From Paramacrobiotus metropolitanus (Eukaryota; Tardigrada; Eutardigrada; Parachela; Macrobiotidae), in assembly GCF_019649055.1 (NCBI RefSeq), contig NW_026570278.1:868001-932000 (forward strand): DNA of 64,000 bases, read 5' to 3'. Position numbers and translations under genes: made by a program. Under the pieces are notes generated by a model. It saw nothing but the letters and a program-made list of their open reading frames with translations. It ran no database searches and was not told where the DNA came from. This document shows, in pieces, positions 52,712 to 64,000 of the stretch (positions within the stretch are counted from its first letter, which is position 1; every line of letters begins with the position of its first letter).

Positions 52712-55700
52712 GTCCCCAATTAGGGATAAGTCCGGACTTCATTGGCCGAAGGGATAACCCGGAGGCTAGTTCACGGCTCCAATAGAGCCATATTTGGACA
52801 TGTCTGGGCGGGAGGACATCTACGCTCGGAAGTTCGACAACGGGTACGCCCGACGTGACCAGGCTGGTGGGTACACTTTCCGCCATGCCGGCCCGGGCAA
52901 CCCGTCCCCGGCGCCCAAATCATCGAACTCCAATCGGTCGACAAAGTCCAACAAATCGGACAAGTCAACCAGCTCAGCCAAGGAGAAGCGAGACCAGCGG
53001 ATCCTGGGAGCCGGTTTCACCCATTCGCCGGAGGATAGCTTCGAGGACGCCCACGACCGGACGTTCTTGGAGCCATCACAGGCTGAACCGGAGGTTCTGC
53101 TTGGCCCAATAGGCCAAGACATGGTGAACCCGGAGCCTGTAGCGGGACATGGGCACCCAATAGGTGCCATGCCAAGCTCGTCTCCGGCTAAGTCCTCGGA
53201 CAGTGGAGCCTCGGACCCGGCACTGAGCAGTGCCGCGGAGTCACCGGACATGGGTGACCCGGTGTCACCCCAACAGGGTGGCATGGGAACCAGAATGGAA
53301 CCGAGGCAGACCCAGAAGAGCCCTAACCAGACTGGAGGGAAGGTTCCACCGGCCCGGGAGGTGACCCACAAGGCGGGTTCACCGGTCAAAACCCCGGTAT
53401 CCCCGGTCGGAAACCCTAAGTCTCCGGTCAACACCCGGAAATCAATATCCCCGGATCCGAAACGGACCTCGGGGACTCTGAAGACGACGTCACCGGACCC
53501 GAAGCCCCGGACTGGGACCCCAACTCGGACCTTGGACTCACCGAGGCCGACTTCGGGAAACCAGAAGTCGTCATCGGGGACATTGCAGCCGGGCAAGACC
53601 CCTAACACCGGGGCTCGGATCACAACCCAACAGGTCGGAACCCCGAAAACCCGTCTGCAACCCCTACTTCACCGGCCAAAAAGGCCATTTCCCCGGTCAA
53701 GTTCCGGTTTTCACCGTCCGGAACCGAAGGAACCTCGGCTACCGGGCTACAGACCCCGGTCACTGAACCTTCCCCGGGAAGTGAACCCTTACTGACTAGA
53801 ACCAGCCGGGTGGAATCGTCACGGAAGTCGAAATCAGCGTCGCCTCAGAAGGAGAAGCCGACAGAGGACCTTCCACCGACACCACCTATGTTCGAACCCT
53901 CGGAACCCTCGGAACCCCGGGCTAGTAAGACACCGTCACCGACCGATGACGTGTTTGACGAAACCGTGTTGCCCAATCAGGCGACCGGACGTCCAGACAG
54001 CTCGCAAGGGTTCTTCCGAACCCCGGTACCGAAGCAGTACCCTGGTTCCCATATCGGAGTCTCGGACTACACCCCCCACCGGTACCTGACGAAGACTCCC
54101 CCGGAGAAGATCCATGACCCGGAGGTCCTTCGGCAACGGATCTACGAGTTGCAGAATCAGCTCGTAGCCGCAAACAACATCGTGGAGTCGACCGAGAACG
54201 TCTTATCACAGACGGTCGCCAGTCATCAGCGTGAGCGCAAGAAGCTCACGGCTGACTTAGATAGCGCGAATGCCGCTGTCGGTGACCTAACCCAGCAGAT
54301 CGCACGGTTAGAGGCCCAGTTACAAGCAACTGAAGCGCCCTGCCGATACGACCAAAACGAAGTCGTCCGACTCCAAGACATGCTGGAGCAGTCTCGCGCT
54401 GAAGTGGTCACCCTCCGCCACGACTTGGAGGAGCGGTTAATGACCCTTAGCGACTCGGAGGCTACCTCGGCCTACCTGCTGGACATGCTGGGCCGGGTGG
54501 ATGAATAGCGGGAGAAGAACAACCGGTTAAAGCAGGGCATTATCGGCCTGGAAGGAGAAATCGACGAGCTCCAATCTGAGCTCGAAGTCCTCCGGCAGGC
54601 CTATGAGAACCTCCGGTTGAATCAGAATGACCCGGAGGGTATAGCCGTGGACCTTCGGCTATGCCAAGCCCAACTTACCGACCAAATCTACGGCCTCAAT
54701 GATCATCTCCGGAGCGAAGCCGCCCGGTTCGAGAATGACCGAAGAGAGAACCTCAAGGTCGTCGAGGCTCAAAGAGCCCGAATCACTCAACTGGAGGCCA
54801 AAGAGAAGGAGTTCATCGAGTACTCGAACGAAATGTACGAGTACAACTGTGAAGCGGCAAAGATCATCCGCGGATACCTCCAGGAAAAAAAAGAACGGGA
54901 AATCGAGGTGGCCTGCCTTAACGCAGAGAAGTCCTACCTCGAGGAGTCGCTCAACGAGCAACCCCCGTCATACCAGACCACTCAGGTGCAGGACAAGTGT
55001 CATCAGATCGATGACTACCTGCGCCGGGACAATCCCCTGCTTGGCCCAATAGGTCAACCGGGGATGTCCACCGACCAAACTTACATGGTCGGAATCATCC
55101 AGGGCGAGCCGCCGTCCACCGGGGACATACCGCGAAGGCCACCAATCCCTTCGGCCCCGGAGCCAGAACGGAACACTTGGACGGCTACGTCAAACGTACC
55201 GACCCAATCCACGGCAACAACAACCATGGCCTTCGGGGGAACGTCCGCAAGTGTGACGTTCTCAACCAGCACCAGGCCCGTGGCATCGACCGCACCCAGA
55301 CCGAACCCGGATAATCGACAACAAGGTCAAGCCCGAGGCTCGAACCCTCGAGCCCCTGCTGCCGGGTCGTACAACTTAGGCAACGGAACGGGACTCAGGC
55401 CACCGCTGAACTTCCCAATAGGAGGTCCGCAGCCTGACTCGGCAATCTCCGGCGACGACCGGGGAAGGTCAAACTCGCAGAACGCGTACCCATCCCGAGT
55501 CCCGCCGCAACCCACCCAAGGAGGACAAAGAGACTGGGCCGACCCGGAGAACCCCGGCTACCCGGCTAACCAGCCTCATCAGCCTCGGCAGGGCCCAACA
55601 GGTCCAGCGCCGCAGGCTGATCGCTATCTGGTAGTGCCACCTGGGATGTGGCTCGACTAGAATGGAGTCCTCCAGATATCCCCGGCTACGGAGCGCAGAA

Positions 55701-58700
55701 TCCTCCGCCGAACCAAGGGTACGGAGCGCAGAATCCTCCGCCCGGGCCAGGACAGCCACAACAGCCGGCGCCCCCGGGAAACCCGAACCCTCATCCTCAA
55801 CCGAACCCACCCCAGCCAGCCCCGGCCGCTCAACTGCAGCATGTACCATACATGCCGGCCTTGTATCCTCCGGTAGCCCAACAGGCACAACCGGCGATAC
55901 AGGCCCATCAGCCCGCGCTACTCGAACAGGAGATCGAACAAGCCCGACAAGAGGGCTACCAAGAAGGCCGAAACCGCTATGAAGAGCGAATGGCTCGGAT
56001 CGCAGCCAAGAAGCTTCGGGGCGATCTACCGAAGTTCGACGGCGACCGATCCAAGGTGGAGGCATGGATCATCAAAATCCGGCGAATCTATCGCCAGGAG
56101 GCGGACGACATCGGAATGTCCAACACCGCCTTCATGAATGAAGTGGAGAGCGTCCTTACGGGACAAGCCTTAGACTGGTACCAGAACCAGTCGGCCTTGG
56201 AACCCGAGGAGAACGGCTGGCCGGTGGAATACTGGCTTCAGCAGTTCGCAGCTCGCTTCGCGGAGACGGATAAGCAGGTCACGGCGGTAGCGGACATCAC
56301 TAACCGAAAGTACAAGTTCGGGCAAGAGACCCCGGAGCAGTACTACGACGCTATCATCAACCTCCAACAGCGGGGCAACCTCAGCGACCAGCTGGCCGTC
56401 CACTACCTGCGGGCAAATGTCCTGGAGCCGAACCTACGGGCAGCCCTGGACATTCGAATGCCCAAAACCACGCAGGAGTTCCGCGACTACCTTCGGGATT
56501 TCACCCGGGGAAGGCCGATGTATGAGGTTCAGAAGGGTGGCAATACCACCAATTACATCACCGTCAGAACGGCGACGCCCATATCGGCAACCCAACAGGC
56601 CCCCGGATACAATCAACCCAGTTCGCCAGGTTACCAGAACGTGCAACCAGGACTTCACCGACCAAGCCCTCCGGCGACACCCCCTCACCAAGCCCGAGCC
56701 CAACCCGATCAGACCTGGGCGGCGATGGCGGCGATGAACCTTAACGGGTCCCCAATAGGGACCGCGGTTCCGCCGCCCGCTTATGGGAATAGTGGCCAAC
56801 CGAGTCAACCTCGGAGCCCCGGCTACGGTCAACCTCAGAGCCAGGGTTACTCCGGCTATGGCCAGCCCCAACAGGGCTACAGCCAGCCCCGGAGTCCCGG
56901 CTTCGTTCAGCCTCAACAAGGCTTCGGTCAACCCCAACAGGGTTATGGCCTGAACTCCGACTACGGCCAACCTCAGAACCAGGGGTTTGGCTCCGGAGGT
57001 GGATATGGAGGAGGTGGAGCCCCACAATATGGAGGCTCCGGCAGGAGACGTGGCGGCGGGAATCGCGGCCGCGGAAACTTCGGTAACCGCGGAGGCGGAG
57101 GTGGCCAGGCGCAGAATGGCCAACGGCAACCCCGCACACCACAGCAGGAGGCTCGCCAACTAGCGACCTACGTCGATCGGATGGAAGCGAAGTTCTTCCA
57201 GTGGACACAGGACGGAACGATCTCGTGTCCCCACTGCATGTAGGGCAACCACAACCAAGCAAGTTGTGGGTATGCCGGACTCCGGGAACAGGACAACCTT
57301 AACCGGAGATGGTGCAATGATTGGCGGTACCGTTACGATAACGGGTGGCCACTGGGTTCGGCAAACCCGAACTACGCCAACATAGTGCCACCACCGCGAC
57401 CCCGTCAGCAGAATGCCGGCGGAGGAAACTAGCAGCCTGCCCAAGGGGGCGGGGCGAACCGTCAGAATGGCGGTCGGCCTCCGTTGGCAACCCCGCCACC
57501 AGGCCAGCGGCCGCAGTTGCCGCCTTCCCCAGCTCCCAATAGGAGCCAGGGTGGGTTTTCACCGGTAGCTGGCGGGCCGGCCCCGGGAACATCCCAGGGA
57601 AACGGCTAAGGTCGATGAGCTCCGGTGACTCATTCGACCTCCGTCATCCAACGAACCACCGGATAAGGATAACCCTACTAACCGGATTAACCCTTTGGAC
57701 ACAACTCGGAATGACGACTTGGATTTAGCCTCCGCAAAGGTCAGCGAAGCTGCCACAACCTTGGCGGCGGGGACGGTAGCCCAACTAGGCACCGGACTTC
57801 CCCGGTTCGGAAACTCGGAGAACCGACCCGAACCTCGCAGCACCGATAATGCGGCCCCCGGACCGGAAGAGGTACCCGGGGGGATCGGCCAAGGAACTTT
57901 GGTCCGATCGGCAGGGGCAAGAAATGCCCCACCTGGCCCCAGAATAGGTGCTGGAGGGGTCGGCCGAGGAACTCGGAACCGACCGGCCGGGACGAGAAAC
58001 GTCACCGAGCCGCCCGGAGGGTTCAGTACCCAATTAGGTACTACGAACCCCGGGCTTAGCGGACAACCGGGACGCCGGCCCGCAACCTCGCAGGATGCCA
58101 GAATGGCACCCGAACCGTCACCGGTAGGCCAACCGGGGAGACGGCCCGTCGAAAGAACGGAAGATCCCACCGTACGAGCAAAGACTCCGGAGGGATGGGA
58201 ATCAGTCCCACTGGAAGCACAGGCACCCGTCTACTCTCGGCCGGAGGAAGCGGACCTCTTCCAACGTCAGCCACCAAGAACTGTAACTGGCTCACGCACG
58301 TTCTTCAACATGCAGTATAACCTATCGACGCTGCGAGAGGGAGAACCAACCATGGAGGAACGGATTAACAGCCGAATAGCCCCGGTAGAAACCGCCGAAT
58401 CACTGATGGAAGGCGTCGCGAACCGTCCAGGAGTGGTAAAATCGGTTAATCAGAAGTTTCACCGAGCCGACCAGCCCCGGCTGAAGGACTTATCCGACGC
58501 AACCGAGCCTCGGATGCAGCTGGAACATTGGTTGTCTACCCACAAGACGGAGTAGACCCATTAAAACTAGTCCAGCAACCCGTGCAACCGCCGCGCGTAG
58601 ACACCAATAGTGTCCCCGGCGAATCAACCCTGATTCCGGTGGAGGTCACCATACGGGAAGTGACCTTCCATCCGCATTCGTCTACCGGACGGCCGAAGGT

Positions 58701-61419
58701 AGTCCGGGCATGGACCCACGAAGTCCAGATCTGACCCACCACGACTATGGCTATGTTGTACACCGGAGCCGAAACATCCCTAATAGAGGAGCGTTTCTGC
58801 CGGGCCAACAACCTCAAACTTGAATCTATGGGGTGCTACACCAAAATCCTTGGTGTTGGCGGACAAGTAGCCTTCATTGTGATCCATTGCTGCACCGTAC
58901 CGGTAACGCTGCAAGGATACACCAGCCCCCACACTTTCCATGGTCAACCGAACAATTCGGGCGTTCCAGTCCTGCTTGGATGCGACTACCTGCATTCCAA
59001 GTTCGTTCTCACCCGGGCGCCGACCCCCAATGAGGGTCAGCGGAACCCACCTTCGGGTGTAGTGCAGCCTATCCCGATACCAGAGGCATCGGGCACGGCA
59101 ACGAACACGGCTCGGATTAATCGGATGGTTAACCCGATTATCCCCGGACCCTCGATTTGCCCGGAATGCTCGGCCACCGAACGAAGCCTCGTCACGGAGC
59201 TGCAAGTCCACAACGCCATTGAACAGCATATGGCTAAAGTACGGACAACCCGACTGGAACCAATAAAAGGGATATTAAAGTCTATCCCGATACCAGAGGC
59301 ATCGGCCTCTGGTATACTCTTACAAAGATACCGGACATGGTTCCTCGGCATTCGACACCTCCTCGAGACCAGAACGGTCGACATAGTGAATGAGCTGGGA
59401 AGGGTCGGCGCAAGAACCGACGACCAGATTCGCTAAGCCAGGGAAGAATGCCAGACGGTCATTAACCTAACCGAAGCCTTAGAAGAAGAGATCATTGAAT
59501 GGGAAGAGGAACGAATTGTACTTCACGCACAATTTGCGGAACATCAGCTCCCCATTCCGCCGGTACTCGAGATCCAAGCCCACGAACTGGGCCGGCGACT
59601 CTTCTGGCATTTCAGAGATCCGTATCACCTCGGTACACTGGACACTCCTTCATTCTGGAGTAAGTTCGGCGAAAACACCCGGATAACCCGAGTTGTGCCG
59701 GACCCAGAGCCTCCGATTGAACCTTGTAACTGGCATCAGGCCAAGAAAGTGAGGCTTTGCGGAGACGTACACCCACAAGAAGGGGGTCGTCTAGCAAATA
59801 CCCGGACAAATGTCCCGGATCAGGAGTATATGGCCTTGGAATGCCCGATCTGTCGTCAGAATAACGGACTGATCGTCCAAGCCCTCAGAACCCGGAACGA
59901 ACAGGTCTGGGAGCATGGAAGGCCACCTTCACCCGCACCTCCCGAACCAGAAAGGTGGGTAGGACCGGCTCAGGGGACCCCAAACAGGGTTACTGACGGC
60001 CTACTGGAACCTTACGGGGACTTAGCCGACGGAGAAGCCGAAATCGACTTCGAAACCCCGGATTCGGATGTTTCGGACGTCCAGAGTACAAGTGACTCAC
60101 CGGACACCGACTCCGATAATGAACCCTCGGACCCTTCGGATGAAGAATCATCCGACGAGGACGACGACGAAGACGATAACGACATCGGCTTCGACCCGTC
60201 AGTCCGATGGGTAGGGATTGACACACCTCCGGATGGACCCTCAAGGGGTGAACCGCCCGGACATCAACCCGCAAAAGAAGCCAACGAGCCTCGGAATGAA
60301 GGTTCAGGCCATCAACGGGCTGAGTTAACCGCAATTACGGTTTCTCACCCGGCTGACAGCCAGTCAACCTCGGCCACGTCAAGTGATACCGGCTTAGACC
60401 CGGACATCGACCCTTCCGAGGATGAAACATCGGAAGAAGGCTCGACGCATGAAGGATCCGATACGGAACGACGGGTACCGTTAACCGACGACGAACAGAT
60501 TGCACAACAGGCGACATTCGTCGGAGGTAAACCCGTTGTGTCCGGCCAAACCCTGGCACCTGAGGCTCAAGCCTCGGTGAAATCGGCTAAGTCCGAAAAG
60601 ACCGTATACAACCCATGGAAACGGGTTAAGAAGCCGAAGCCAATAGCGACGGCGAGCGAACCTAACCCAACGGTCAATCGCCTTCAAGTGCATACGGAGG
60701 ATAAGGACGACGACCGGCAACCGGTATTCGTCGAGAATAAGTCCACATTACCTCCGTACTCAACCTGTGCCATACTGGTACGAACCCTCAAAAGTATGGA
60801 TCCTAAACGGAGTATCCGGTACGAGTCATTCCGGCGAAAGCACTCCGGAATTCGTCCAATAGAAGACGACATCGAGATTCGACCAAACTGCGACACGGCT
60901 TGGATCAAAGTCCAGAACGCGACCGAATACAGCCAGACACTTCGCAGAGGCGCTAAGATCGGCTACATGCATTACTCGGACACCTACGAGTATGAATTCG
61001 ACAACGAAGGCATCGAATGGGAGATCCCCATGGGAGTTGCCCGGGTCGAGAAGCATGGAGACCGACCATATAACCTCCCGAAGGCGACACAATATGACGC
61101 CACCACGGTTCGAACCCAACAGAAGGTTGAGCTACCACCCCGGGCAGTCGTGGAAGTCACGGTAACCATCGACCTGGAGGTGGACACCACTAAACACCAG
61201 TACCTCATGTACCTCGGCTCGGAAGAAGCCTTAGCGGAGGGCATTGAGATGAAGGATGGTCCAACCCCACATGACGGGAAAAAGTTCACCATCCTGGTAG
61301 CCAACCACAATAATAAGGAAGTCATCATCCGGAAAGGAACTCCTATGGGTCGGATCGAACCGTACGAACACATCACGGACGATCGAAAGGCCCGGGTCAA
61401 ACTTGCCCAATTAGGCGAG
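52712..61419 (+). repeat. family of 15 stem-loops with a CAAYA/CAATTA loop
   Basis: Stem-loop spans: 52712-52727, 52775-52789, 53100-53118, 53152-53168, 53266-53280, 55041-55057, 55411-55425, 55591-55605, 56747-56763, 56864-56878, 56909-56923, 56930-56944, 57532-57546, 58025-58042, 61402-61419. Loops: CAATA (seven), CAACA (five), CAATTA (three). Stems are 5 to 7 pairs, counting G-U, and nearly always close with C-G. The stem sequences differ from one to the next (CTTGGCC, GGCACC, GGTCCC, AGTACC, GCTCC and others). Two lie in the leader, the rest in coding sequence but in different frames. Confidence 0.7.
52800..57609 (+). CDS. gypsy gag polyprotein, interrupted
   Basis: ATG 52800 opens a Pro/Ser/Thr-rich disordered region. 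The frame changes near 53640, continues to TAG 54506-54508 and resumes in frame with a coiled coil (about 54510-54960) and another disordered stretch up to TAG 55658. It shifts into the frame 55648-57240. There, about 55980-56520 encodes a Retrotrans_gag-like capsid domain (LPKFDGDRSKVEAWI, ALDWYQNQ, WLQQFAARF). Next come a Gln/Gly/Tyr repeat (56820-57000) and an Arg/Gly-rich RNA-binding-like stretch (57040-57090). A CCHC zinc knuckle (CPHC...H...C) is itself split by TAG 57241-57243. A further TAG is at 57430-57432 and TAA 57607-57609 probably ends gag. This copy looks unable to make full gag unless stops are read through. Confidence 0.75.
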
Positions 61420-64000
61420 GAAGACCCGGAAACCCTAGAAGAGCAGAAGAAGGCCATCAACTCCATGAAGCTCGGAGAGAACCTCACCGACGAGCAGCGA
61501 CAAGTCTTACGGAACATCGCATGGGAGCATCGACTGGTCTTCCCGACCTCCAAGCGACCCTACGGTGACGTCAAGGGAGTCACCCACGTCATCGACGTCC
61601 AAGGCGCGAAGCCCATCAAGATGAACCCAACCAGAACGAGTTGGAAGGGCCGCGAATTCATCTCCAAGCACGTGCAGGAGATGTTGGACCAGGGCGTAAC
61701 CGAACCTTCCGACGCAGCATGGAGCTTCCCCGTGGTCTTGGCAGCCAAGAAGAACCCGGACGGCTCCGTCGGAACCCGGTTCTGCATCAACTATATTAAG
61801 TTGAATGCAGTAACCAAGAAGAGCAACTACCCCCTTCCCAACCCGGACGAACTACTGGATAAGTGCGCCGGGATGGAATTCTACGGCAAGGTGGACTGCC
61901 AGTCCGGTTTTTGGCAAATCACAATGGATGAAGCCTCAAAGGACATGACAACCTTCGTGACCCCGGAGGGCATGTACCGCTTTAACCGGATGCCGTTCGG
62001 AGTCTGTAACGGACCCGCAACCTTCCAGATGCATGTCGATAAAATCACGGCAAAAGCCCGCAAGAAAGGTGTTTTTGCCTACATTGACGACATCATCTTC
62101 TTCGGTCGGACCTTCGATGAATTCGAGGAGGCCTTCCGAGCAACCCTGGACTGCCTACTGGAGGCCGGGTTTACCATCAAGCCTTCGAAGTGTGAGGTTG
62201 GGACGGACAAGTTACCGTTCCTCGGACATGTCCTCAGCAAGGCCGGAGTCCAGACCGATGACGAGAAAGTGGCGGCCATTGCTCAACACCAACCCCCGAG
62301 AACAGAACGCCAATTGCGGTCGTTCCTCGGGTTGGCTAACTACTACCGGAAATTCATCCGCAACTATGCTCAGAGGACTTCGAAGATGTATGAACTCCTC
62401 CGGAAAGCCAACTCCATCCGAACAGACTGGACGGATGAGCATACGGCAGAGTTTAACGGCATCAAGATAGCCTTGACTACAGCCCCGGTACTCGCAAAGT
62501 TCGACCCGTCCAAGAAGACGGTAATCGAGTGCGATGCCAGTGGAGCCGGACTTGGCGCGGTGTTGTCACAAGAAGGCCACCCGGTAGCTTTCGCCAGCCG
62601 AGTTCTCCACGGAGCTGAAAAGAACTACGGTGTCACCGAATGGGAATGCTTAGCCGTAGTCTGGGCCGTGCAGAAGTTTAAGCACTTCATCGACCATGGA
62701 CCCTTCACCGTCCGAACGGACCACCGAGCCCTGCAGAACCTGATGCGCTGCGAGTCCAATAGACCCGGCATCAACCCCCGGTTAACACGGTGGGCATTGG
62801 CTCTGCAAGGCAAGGACATCACCATCGAGTACAAACCCGGAGTCTTCTGCGATAACGCGGATGCTCTGTCCCGATGGCCGTTGGAACGACCCGACGATAA
62901 TGACCCTCACGAAGAACTCGACCAAGTACCCAACTTTGAAGACTTCAAAGACGAGATCCAAATAAGGTCTGTAAGGGTACAACGGAAGGTTCAGAAGGAA
63001 TGGAGCCGAAGAAACCCGGACCAGACCCCGGAACCCGGAGGCTTAACGGATGAGGCCCGAGCGGTCGGATGGAAGCAGACCACCGGAATGCGTCGCCCAG
63101 TTCCGAAAAACACCCCGCTCCCCGGATGCAAAGTCATTTCCGACTGGAATGAACTTGCAACGGCAGACGTACGCATAATTAACGTCGACGTACCGGACGA
63201 CCCGGGCTCACAAGGCGAGTCGAGGGTCGGAACCGCAAAAGTACGAATAACCGGAGCACCCGGACTGGAGGCCTCGGGTTCACAAGGCGAACCCGACGAA
63301 GAAGAAAAGAAACTGTTGGAGTCCAATAAGGAGTTACGTAGACTGCAACTCCGGGACCCTCACCTCCGGAAACTGATTGACGAAATGGAGAATCAGGACC
63401 AGCTGGACCATAAGTCCCGGCTACTGGAACATTACCAGATGAGCGGAGGTGTACTCTACCGGCTGACCACCCATAACACCAAGTTAGAACGACGGTTCGT
63501 GGTCCCGCTCTTCATGCGAAAAGGCATCATTCGGGCACTTCACGACGGAAAAACCGGCAACCACTTCGGTCGCGTGAAGACTCTGGAGGCAGCGAAGCTC
63601 CGGTACTACTGGGATCGGATGCTAGCCGATGTTCACGACTATGTGGACAACTGCCCCCGGTGCACCCTGGTGAACAAGCCCCGGACCAAACCACCCGGTA
63701 AACTCCAGAAGATGGAAGTCGGCGAGCCTTGGTACCGCATATACGCGGACTTCAAGGGACCCTTGCCTCGGACAGAGTCCAAGGGATACCAGTATATCGC
63801 CGTCATCACAGACCAGTTCACCAAGTTCACAGTTGCCCGAGCAACCAAGATAAACTCTGCAAAAGAGTTTGAGAAGTTCTTCGTGGAGGATGTCGTCTTA
63901 AAGTACGGCATGCCGACCCACCTCCACACGGACCAGGGATCCCACTTTACGGCTAAGACCTTCGCCAAAGTGGCTAAGATCTTTGGAATCCAGCATACGT
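57695..64000 (+). CDS. gypsy pol polyprotein: protease, RT, RNase H, integrase (3' end outside window)
   Basis: The first part (57695-58555) is disordered; then the frame changes. The protease region has TGAETSLIEE (near 58756), but Tyr stands where the catalytic Asp of D-T/S-G-A is expected. TGA 58732 and TAA 59434 interrupt this part. From 59437 the frame stays open. It has an acidic linker (60010-60190), RT with KVDCQSGFWQI, MPFGVCNGPATF and YIDD (62080-62091), and RNase H with ECDASGAGLGAVLS and ADALSRWP. Integrase shows an HHCC zinc finger (HDGKTGNHF...CPRC, 63541-63663) and the first two catalytic Asp (YADFKGPL, HTDQGSHF); the Glu lies beyond 64000. Confidence 0.85.

Follow-up and report, generated by a model that had tools for sequence, protein, structure and literature searches.

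Why does a mobile element carry the same short loop sequence at many places along its length, each time on another stem? This question is raised by a giant Ty3/gypsy-type element of the tardigrade Paramacrobiotus metropolitanus, part of which extends from position 52712 to beyond the end of the window, i.e., the whole stretch of 64,000 nucleotides that was analysed (positions 868,001–932,000 of contig NW_026570278.1; unless stated otherwise, positions are those of the window, and the CAAYA hairpins and reading frames described lie on its forward (+) strand). An earlier note had described fifteen stem-loops with a conserved CAAYA loop in this element and had suggested a repeated RNA hairpin, perhaps bound by the Gag protein. 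According to the analysis presented here, these stem-loops are one RNA hairpin under selection, whose loop hardly varies while the sequence of its stem is free.

A hairpin was defined as a stem of at least 5 base pairs (bp), G-U pairs allowed, around the loop CAAYA or CAAYYA. Between 52681 and 64000 such a stem is present at 19 of the 64 CAAY(Y)A sites, and all 19 lie within 52712–61419, which confirms the hairpins and shows the count of fifteen to be too low, although one of the 19, GGTGG/CCACC around CAATA at 56536–56550 with a G-C closing pair and a loop that is mostly changed in other copies, is probably outside the set. Dinucleotide shuffles (n = 300) yielded a mean of 0.19 hairpins and never more than 2. 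With Watson-Crick pairs only, 13 of the 64 sites qualify compared to a mean of 0.06 and a maximum of 2 in the shuffles. In the window upstream of the element (1–52000) only 3 of 157 CAAYA sites have such stems, these three being identical and spaced by 84 bases. The loop also emerges from an unprompted scan of all loops, in which the highest ranks fall to CAATA (stems at 9 of 18 occurrences, p = 2e-17) and CAACA (5 of 23, p = 4e-8) for a loop length of 5 bases and to CAATTA (4 of 5, p = 2e-9) for one of 6 bases, at a background rate of 0.42–0.45%. Moreover, RNA folding with 60 bases of context on each side gave a pairing probability above 0.5 for 18 of the 19 hairpins compared to 32 of 79 hairpins with other loops.

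Seven further hairpins lie downstream of the window in L069, the 9.6 kb that follow next on the same contig up to its end. Taken together, the element and L069 hold 26 hairpins in about 20.8 kb, with the loops CAATA (10), CAACA (9), CAATTA (6) and CAATCA (1). These 26 hairpins have 25 distinct 5-bp stems, and 21 of them are closed by C-G. The distribution of stem lengths over all 112 sites of the element and L069 is bimodal with a dip at 4 bp (41 sites without a pair, 20 with one, 8 with two, 12 with three, 5 with four, 13 with five, 11 with six and 2 with seven or more pairs).

The comparison of copies within the genome carries the argument from excess to selection. Two genome searches on the gag side returned 45 and 46 matching stretches with identities down to 72%, several of them pieces of one copy, and 40 candidates were scored in each. 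Site by site, 58 loci of 74–95% identity to the window were mapped, copies at 72–74% being left out and some of the 58 loci being two pieces of one copy; each locus holds 2–12 hairpins. As control, hairpins of these copies with loops other than CAAYA were used, which is fairer than shuffles, and an arm variant was regarded as inherited if present in at least 3 copies (stretches 52712–54760 and 55000–59400, the hairpin of site 52717 at the block edge being left out). Compensation between intact inherited variants was found for 7 of 13 variable CAAYA hairpins compared to 2 of 75 hairpins with other loops (Fisher 8.5e-6), and all inherited variants are intact in 8 of the 13 compared to 12 of the 75. 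Similarly, stems are retained in 303 of 414 copy cells for CAAYA and in 440 of 1219 for other loops. Two alignments were built of the window and 27 of 29 loci each, one without L016, in which the start is not reached, and L017, which has a deletion, the other without L045 and L067, which lack the stretch; the covariation tests cover sequence upstream of pol. In both 28-sequence alignments three of five measures, namely the covariation score, the paired cells and the cells with both sides changed, exceeded 500 of 500 shuffles, and control structures slid along the alignment score far below the true positions. The loop is kept meanwhile: at C-G-closed sites, the 5-base loops of copies with intact stems have C in 243, A in 246, A in 245, Y in 245 and A in 244 of 248 cases. 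Across copies the loops are mostly CAATA or CAACA, and at site 52717 the length shifts between CAATTA and CAATA. The earlier description of a constant loop on a changing yet paired stem is thereby borne out. As a separate observation, one hairpin with another loop, CCGGT/ACCGG around AGGCCA (58121–58136), is kept in 24 of 27 copies, with some pair changed on both sides in 19.

The individual hairpins illustrate these exchanges; where sites are named by loop position, 52717, 53107, 53271, 55047, 55416 and 56753 are the hairpins starting at 52712, 53100, 53262, 55041, 55410 and 56747. Two hairpins lie in the leader. GTCCC/GGGAT around CAATTA (52712–52727) comprises the first bases of homology with the close copies and has the loop CAATA in most copies examined, and GGCTC/GAGCC around CAATA (52775–52789), non-coding and ending 10 bases short of the ATG at 52800, with which the first frame probably starts, occurs in copies with a G-C to A-U exchange as AGCTC/GAGCT. 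Further downstream are found CTTGGCC/GGCCAAG around CAATA (53100–53118), with several compensated forms among copies; GGCACC/GGTGCC around CAATA (53152–53168); a hairpin of 9 pairs including G-U with the loop CAACA (53262–53284), compensated in some copies and broken after 4 bp in many; GTTGCC/GGCGAC around CAATCA (53968–53985), in other copies GTTACC/GGTGAC with mostly CAATAA as loop, i.e., TTGCC/GGCGA exchanged for TTACC/GGTGA; TTGGCC/GGTCAA around CAATA (55041–55057), in close copies TTGACC/GGTTAA or TTGGCC/GGCCAA and in the other subfamily of 3 bp; ACTTCC/GGAGGT around CAATA (55410–55426), present in 5 copies near that of the window and replaced elsewhere; and GGGCC/GGTCC around CAACA (55591–55605), with GGACC/GGTCC and GGGCC/GGCCC in copies. 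These are followed by GGTCCC/GGGACC around CAATA (56747–56763), mostly of 3–4 bp in other copies, and by three hairpins with the loop CAACA, AGCCC/GGGCT (56864–56878), AGCCT/AGGCT (56909–56923) and AACCC/GGGTT (56930–56944), the last of which is AGCCC/GGGCT in 21 of 28 copies. GCTCC/GGAGC around CAATA (57532–57546) is GCCCC/GGGGC in the other subfamily, AGTACC/GGTACT around CAATTA (58025–58042) has GTGCC/GGCAT or GCACC/GGTGC in place of GTACC/GGTAC in copies, and GACAC/GTGTC encloses CAATA at 58600–58614. Within the pol frame, AACCG/CGGTT (60327–60342) and CTTGCC/GGCGAG (61402–61419) both enclose CAATTA.

A second repeated loop, ACAAGGC, was observed in the same element. It closes a stem in 3 of its 4 occurrences (53363–53379, 63205–63221 and 63274–63296), and the stems of 5, 5 and 8 bp are all different (GACCC/GGGTT, GGCTC/GAGTC and TCGGGTTC/GAACCCGA). 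In the scan of 7-base loops this 7-mer has p = 2e-7 before correction, and perhaps it represents a second hairpin class.

The hairpins might also be by-products of peptide repeats, codon usage or chance. Five coding hairpins indeed share one codon phase and the peptide P-I-G, and the three at 56864–56944, all in phase 1, lie inside a short QPQQG repeat and are not fully independent, so that the statement of the earlier note that the hairpins read as different peptides in different frames holds only in part. However, permuting the codons within each amino acid over ten reading frames (codon-preserving shuffles) gave a mean of 1.00 hairpins and a maximum of 5 in 1000 shuffles against 22 of 93 sites observed, and thus neither kind of shuffle came near the observed count. 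Moreover, the leader sites are outside coding sequence, and at site 53107 the neighbouring residues vary among copies (LGPIGQ, HGPIGR and HDPIGQ, read by eye) while the inner pairs are kept. A mere by-product is extremely improbable.

Several observations weigh against the reading that is favoured below, in which the hairpins are dispersed packaging signals. Hairpins are scarce in pol, with 2 of 18 sites in the pol frame of the window, and the 1.5 kb preceding the position of 52712 in 28 copies revealed none. In the alignments, two of the five covariation measures, pairs changed on both sides and further types, were not above shuffles (223 and 485 of 500; 217 and 497 of 500), and parsimony over all branches gave no significant difference (pairs staying paired 0.62 compared to 0.52, p = 0.11), a weak result that the analysis attributes to neutral decay of dead copies. 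Inherited variants that are intact, taken as a plain count, reach 23 of 32 for CAAYA and 101 of 191 for other loops (p = 0.055), and a count of double changes that also admits stems with unpaired positions does not discriminate (8 of 16 compared to 21 of 46). The loop is largely kept even where the stem is shorter than 5 bp (CAACA in 58 and CAATA in 20 cells), and part of its constancy may therefore derive from coding or ancestry. Finally, stems in other copies do not in general decay uncompensated, but sites 53271, 55047, 55416 and 56753 are lost or shortened in one subfamily, with 5 bp kept in few copies at 55416 and 56753, in 8 at 55047 and in about 10 at 53271. Conversely, hairpins without a counterpart in the window copy occur in other copies, i.e., in 6 loci near 53429, in 20 loci near 53628 (with stems of up to 7 bp) and in 7 loci near 54572. 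Individual sites are gained and lost while the set persists.

The arms are inverted repeats at the DNA level too, and a cruciform or a palindromic protein site was therefore considered, the earlier note having offered a DNA-level role as alternative. A double-strand site should favour neither G-U nor A-C exchanges. Where exactly one of the inner five pairs is not a Watson-Crick pair, however, G-U was found in 105 and A-C in 13 cells (20 and 9 distinct positions), the cells not being independent. The same holds for the 12 sites with Watson-Crick inner pairs in the window (42 and 10 cells; 14 and 6 positions) and for the inner five pairs of every CAAYA hairpin of the copies taken singly (47 and 7 cells; 16 and 3 positions). 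A count over six pairs went the opposite way, with 83 A-C and 73 G-U cells, and in this count all 59 C-A and 17 of 24 A-C cells belong to the sixth pair, where stems of 5 bp end or have already ended. Since G-U exceeds A-C exchanges, the direction of single exchanges points to the sense-strand RNA. This disfavours a role at the DNA level, as does the stem sequence, which differs at nearly every site, and a DNA element is very unlikely.

The hairpin is confined to the element in the comparisons made within the host. On the sense strand, 0 of 25 CAAYA sites have even 4 bp in L070, a gypsy-type locus including its gag region, 0 of 29 sites form a hairpin in the sister-family locus L071 (G000:C57:696200-702000, gag region included), whose pol is from a family about 64% identical over the reverse transcriptase (RT), and 0 of 114 sites have 5 bp in eight RT loci, in which no gag is included. 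The same blind loop scan applied to L071 returned a top loop of its own, AATGGTA (3 of 5, p = 2.6e-8), and between the gag and the protease-side frames (L071:2450-2866) there are five hairpins with the stem GCAG/CTGC around AAYGRTA, three of them in one tandem repeat. In 200 shuffles of L071 never more than 2 hairpins had one exact loop in common. Genome-wide this pattern has 433 matches and its reverse 0, and among 100 places listed the matches are often clustered, 2–5 within some 550 bases. The core stem GCAG/CTGC is constant and its pairing thus not open to covariation; the compensated form GCGG/CCGC has 5 matches and the single changes 1 and 2, which is too few to conclude from, with a background of 1 match each in two of three reversed controls. 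These sequence patterns hint that loops may be family-specific.

Who reads the hairpin? Since the loop is specific to the lineage of the element, a reader encoded by the element itself is suggested, and Gag with its RG-rich tail and CX2CX4HX4C knuckle is the obvious candidate. The hairpins might thus serve as packaging signals that are dispersed along the RNA and recognised by the Gag of the element itself, comparable to those of the viruses MS2 or STNV (satellite tobacco necrosis virus), a reading that is given somewhat better than an even chance, with both Gag as loop reader and packaging as purpose being inferred. Some two dozen sites of the element's sense RNA would fold into short hairpins, most of them of 5–6 bp and usually closed by C-G, which would present one loop, CAAYA or CAAYYA. 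Gag, by its capsid or its RG/zinc-knuckle part, would recognise the loop on whatever stem, and through many contacts of this kind on one RNA molecule the genomic RNA would be singled out and compacted as particles assemble.

The structural evidence, i.e., excess, covariation and compensation, is silent on the reader, and the hairpins might likewise be selected at the RNA level and be read by a host RNA-binding protein or by another protein of the element, with a role in export from the nucleus, localisation, control of translation or protection from silencing by the host. Three large proteins encoded at the 3′ side of the element (905, 1114 and 645 amino acids), without a Pfam family, could each bind RNA, but the absence of the motif at the other gypsy-type loci examined, of which L070 and L071 include a gag region, fits an element-specific reader better than one of the host. 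Such another reader is possible but rather unlikely. Base pairing with an RNA in trans, e.g., a primer tRNA or a guide or other RNA, would also suit a loop that is constant and single-stranded while its stem is free. By sequence logic, however, a loop of 5–6 bases in which one position alternates between C and T and the length changes between 5 and 6 would pair weakly and inconsistently, and CAAYA is not self-complementary, which makes loop-loop dimers unlikely as well; pairing in trans is accordingly held to be quite improbable. If the packaging by Gag is extended to the other families, each gypsy family of this tardigrade might have its own iterated hairpin read by its own Gag, the loop acting as a barcode against cross-packaging. 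This is a tentative and rather doubtful idea; if true, co-resident elements would be kept from packaging each other's RNA.

The element itself is at least 20.7 kb long, its part in the window and L069 taken together. Upstream of the capsid-like frame lie three frames of 333, 232 and 347 amino acids (52794–55660), for which a Pfam scan returned no family above cut-off, with weak coiled-coil matches in the second. The gag frame (55648–57243) comprises a capsid-like region, the RG-rich tail and the knuckle, a pattern recognised by eye that in the window copy is broken by the stop of the frame. The capsid-like region aligns with the gag frame of the sister family at 25% identity over 183 amino acids. 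Gag has no match in Pfam, its predicted model has a pLDDT (predicted local distance difference test) value of 41, and a fold search with this low-confidence model gave no usable match and no retroviral capsid among the rows listed, the VIA rows being mostly helical bundles such as BAR domains with middling Z. When the PDB was searched with a portion of the Gag sequence, only 5 matches were returned, with E above 0.2, and no relative was found in the viral contigs searched. Next follow a frame with a weak aspartic-protease match (58747–59436; 17.2 bits compared to a Pfam cut-off of 28.2) and pol (59695–63999, running past the window), in which reverse transcriptase, RNase H and integrase are well over the Pfam cut-off, so that the domain order of protease (weak match), RT, RNase H and integrase is that of Ty3/gypsy-type long terminal repeat (LTR) elements. 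L069 carries the end of pol and then the three large 3′ frames (L069:1665-9480, C58:933564-941379), in which no Pfam family is over cut-off (the second scanned from L069:4384). A part of the second 3′ frame (L069:5000-6500) has 27 matching stretches genome-wide including itself, those elsewhere being 65–92% identical, and since many of these share a contig with gag matches at the expected distance (e.g., C95, C129, C48, C73, C50 and C4), the 3′ frames are regarded as part of the element. The host assembly of 169.8 Mb contains many reverse transcriptases.

At its other end, the window copy starts at about 52712, and close copies (95%) match from there on. These have at least 1.5 kb upstream in common among themselves that is unmatched in the window, and the sequence thus suggests that the window copy is either truncated at its 5′ end or joined there at 52712. 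The upstream stretch of the other copies has no match in L069, and on the 3′ side the end of the contig falls inside the element or close to it, leaving no LTR pair to compare. Shortly upstream of the element, from 47770 to about 51120, a 54-base unit forms a long tandem array, with 48 overlapping matches to one reference of 300 bases. The upstream flanks of many copies that belong to the second subfamily (L019–L038) have C-rich stretches with runs of about 7–14 C and repeated ACCGGACC units before the leader hairpin.

How do these hairpins compare to known systems? The retroviral packaging signal in the 5′ leader consists of RNA hairpins bound by the nucleocapsid part of Gag and is concentrated in the leader, unlike the element described here, in which one hairpin recurs some two dozen times across gag and the 3′ frames. 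A keyword search of the open-access literature, most subscription papers being outside its scope, yielded no report of such a hairpin set for an LTR element. The closest likeness is to viral assembly. In phage MS2 many stem-loops with variable stems are distributed along one genome RNA and have the common loop motif (x)xYA, which is read by the coat protein and which CAAYA fits (PMC6281560). Unlike in MS2, where a 5′ bulged A is described, the stems were counted here without bulges (PMC6281560); moreover, the loop is nearly invariant and the host is an animal retroelement. The coat protein of STNV favours the loop ACAA on whatever stem, and the likeness to the element consists in one preferred loop sequence, a free stem sequence and many sites; STNV differs in being a plant satellite virus with a tetraloop and measured binding, whereas the element is known from sequence (PMC3593212). 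In enteroviruses and hepatitis B virus multiple sites likewise contact the capsid or core protein, for hepatitis B virus with one loop motif, RGAG, but the loops differ and the signals were found by SELEX (systematic evolution of ligands by exponential enrichment) or assembly assays (PMC7793301; PMC7612645). A review of 2018 suggests that Gag-like proteins, too, may make use of this kind of assembly (PMC6281560). The yeast elements Ty1 and Ty3 are LTR retrotransposons as well, whose RNA is packaged by Gag at sites that are not clearly defined (PMC4974528; PMC11381356), multiple scattered sites being likely to contribute (PMC4974528); in contrast to the element described here, no repeated loop motif is mentioned in the excerpts of these two articles. 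While the selection of RNA by LTR retrotransposons is thus not clearly defined even in yeast (PMC4974528), candidate sites are legible from the sequence in the tardigrade element, in which one loop on more than 20 natural stems makes binding by Gag directly testable.

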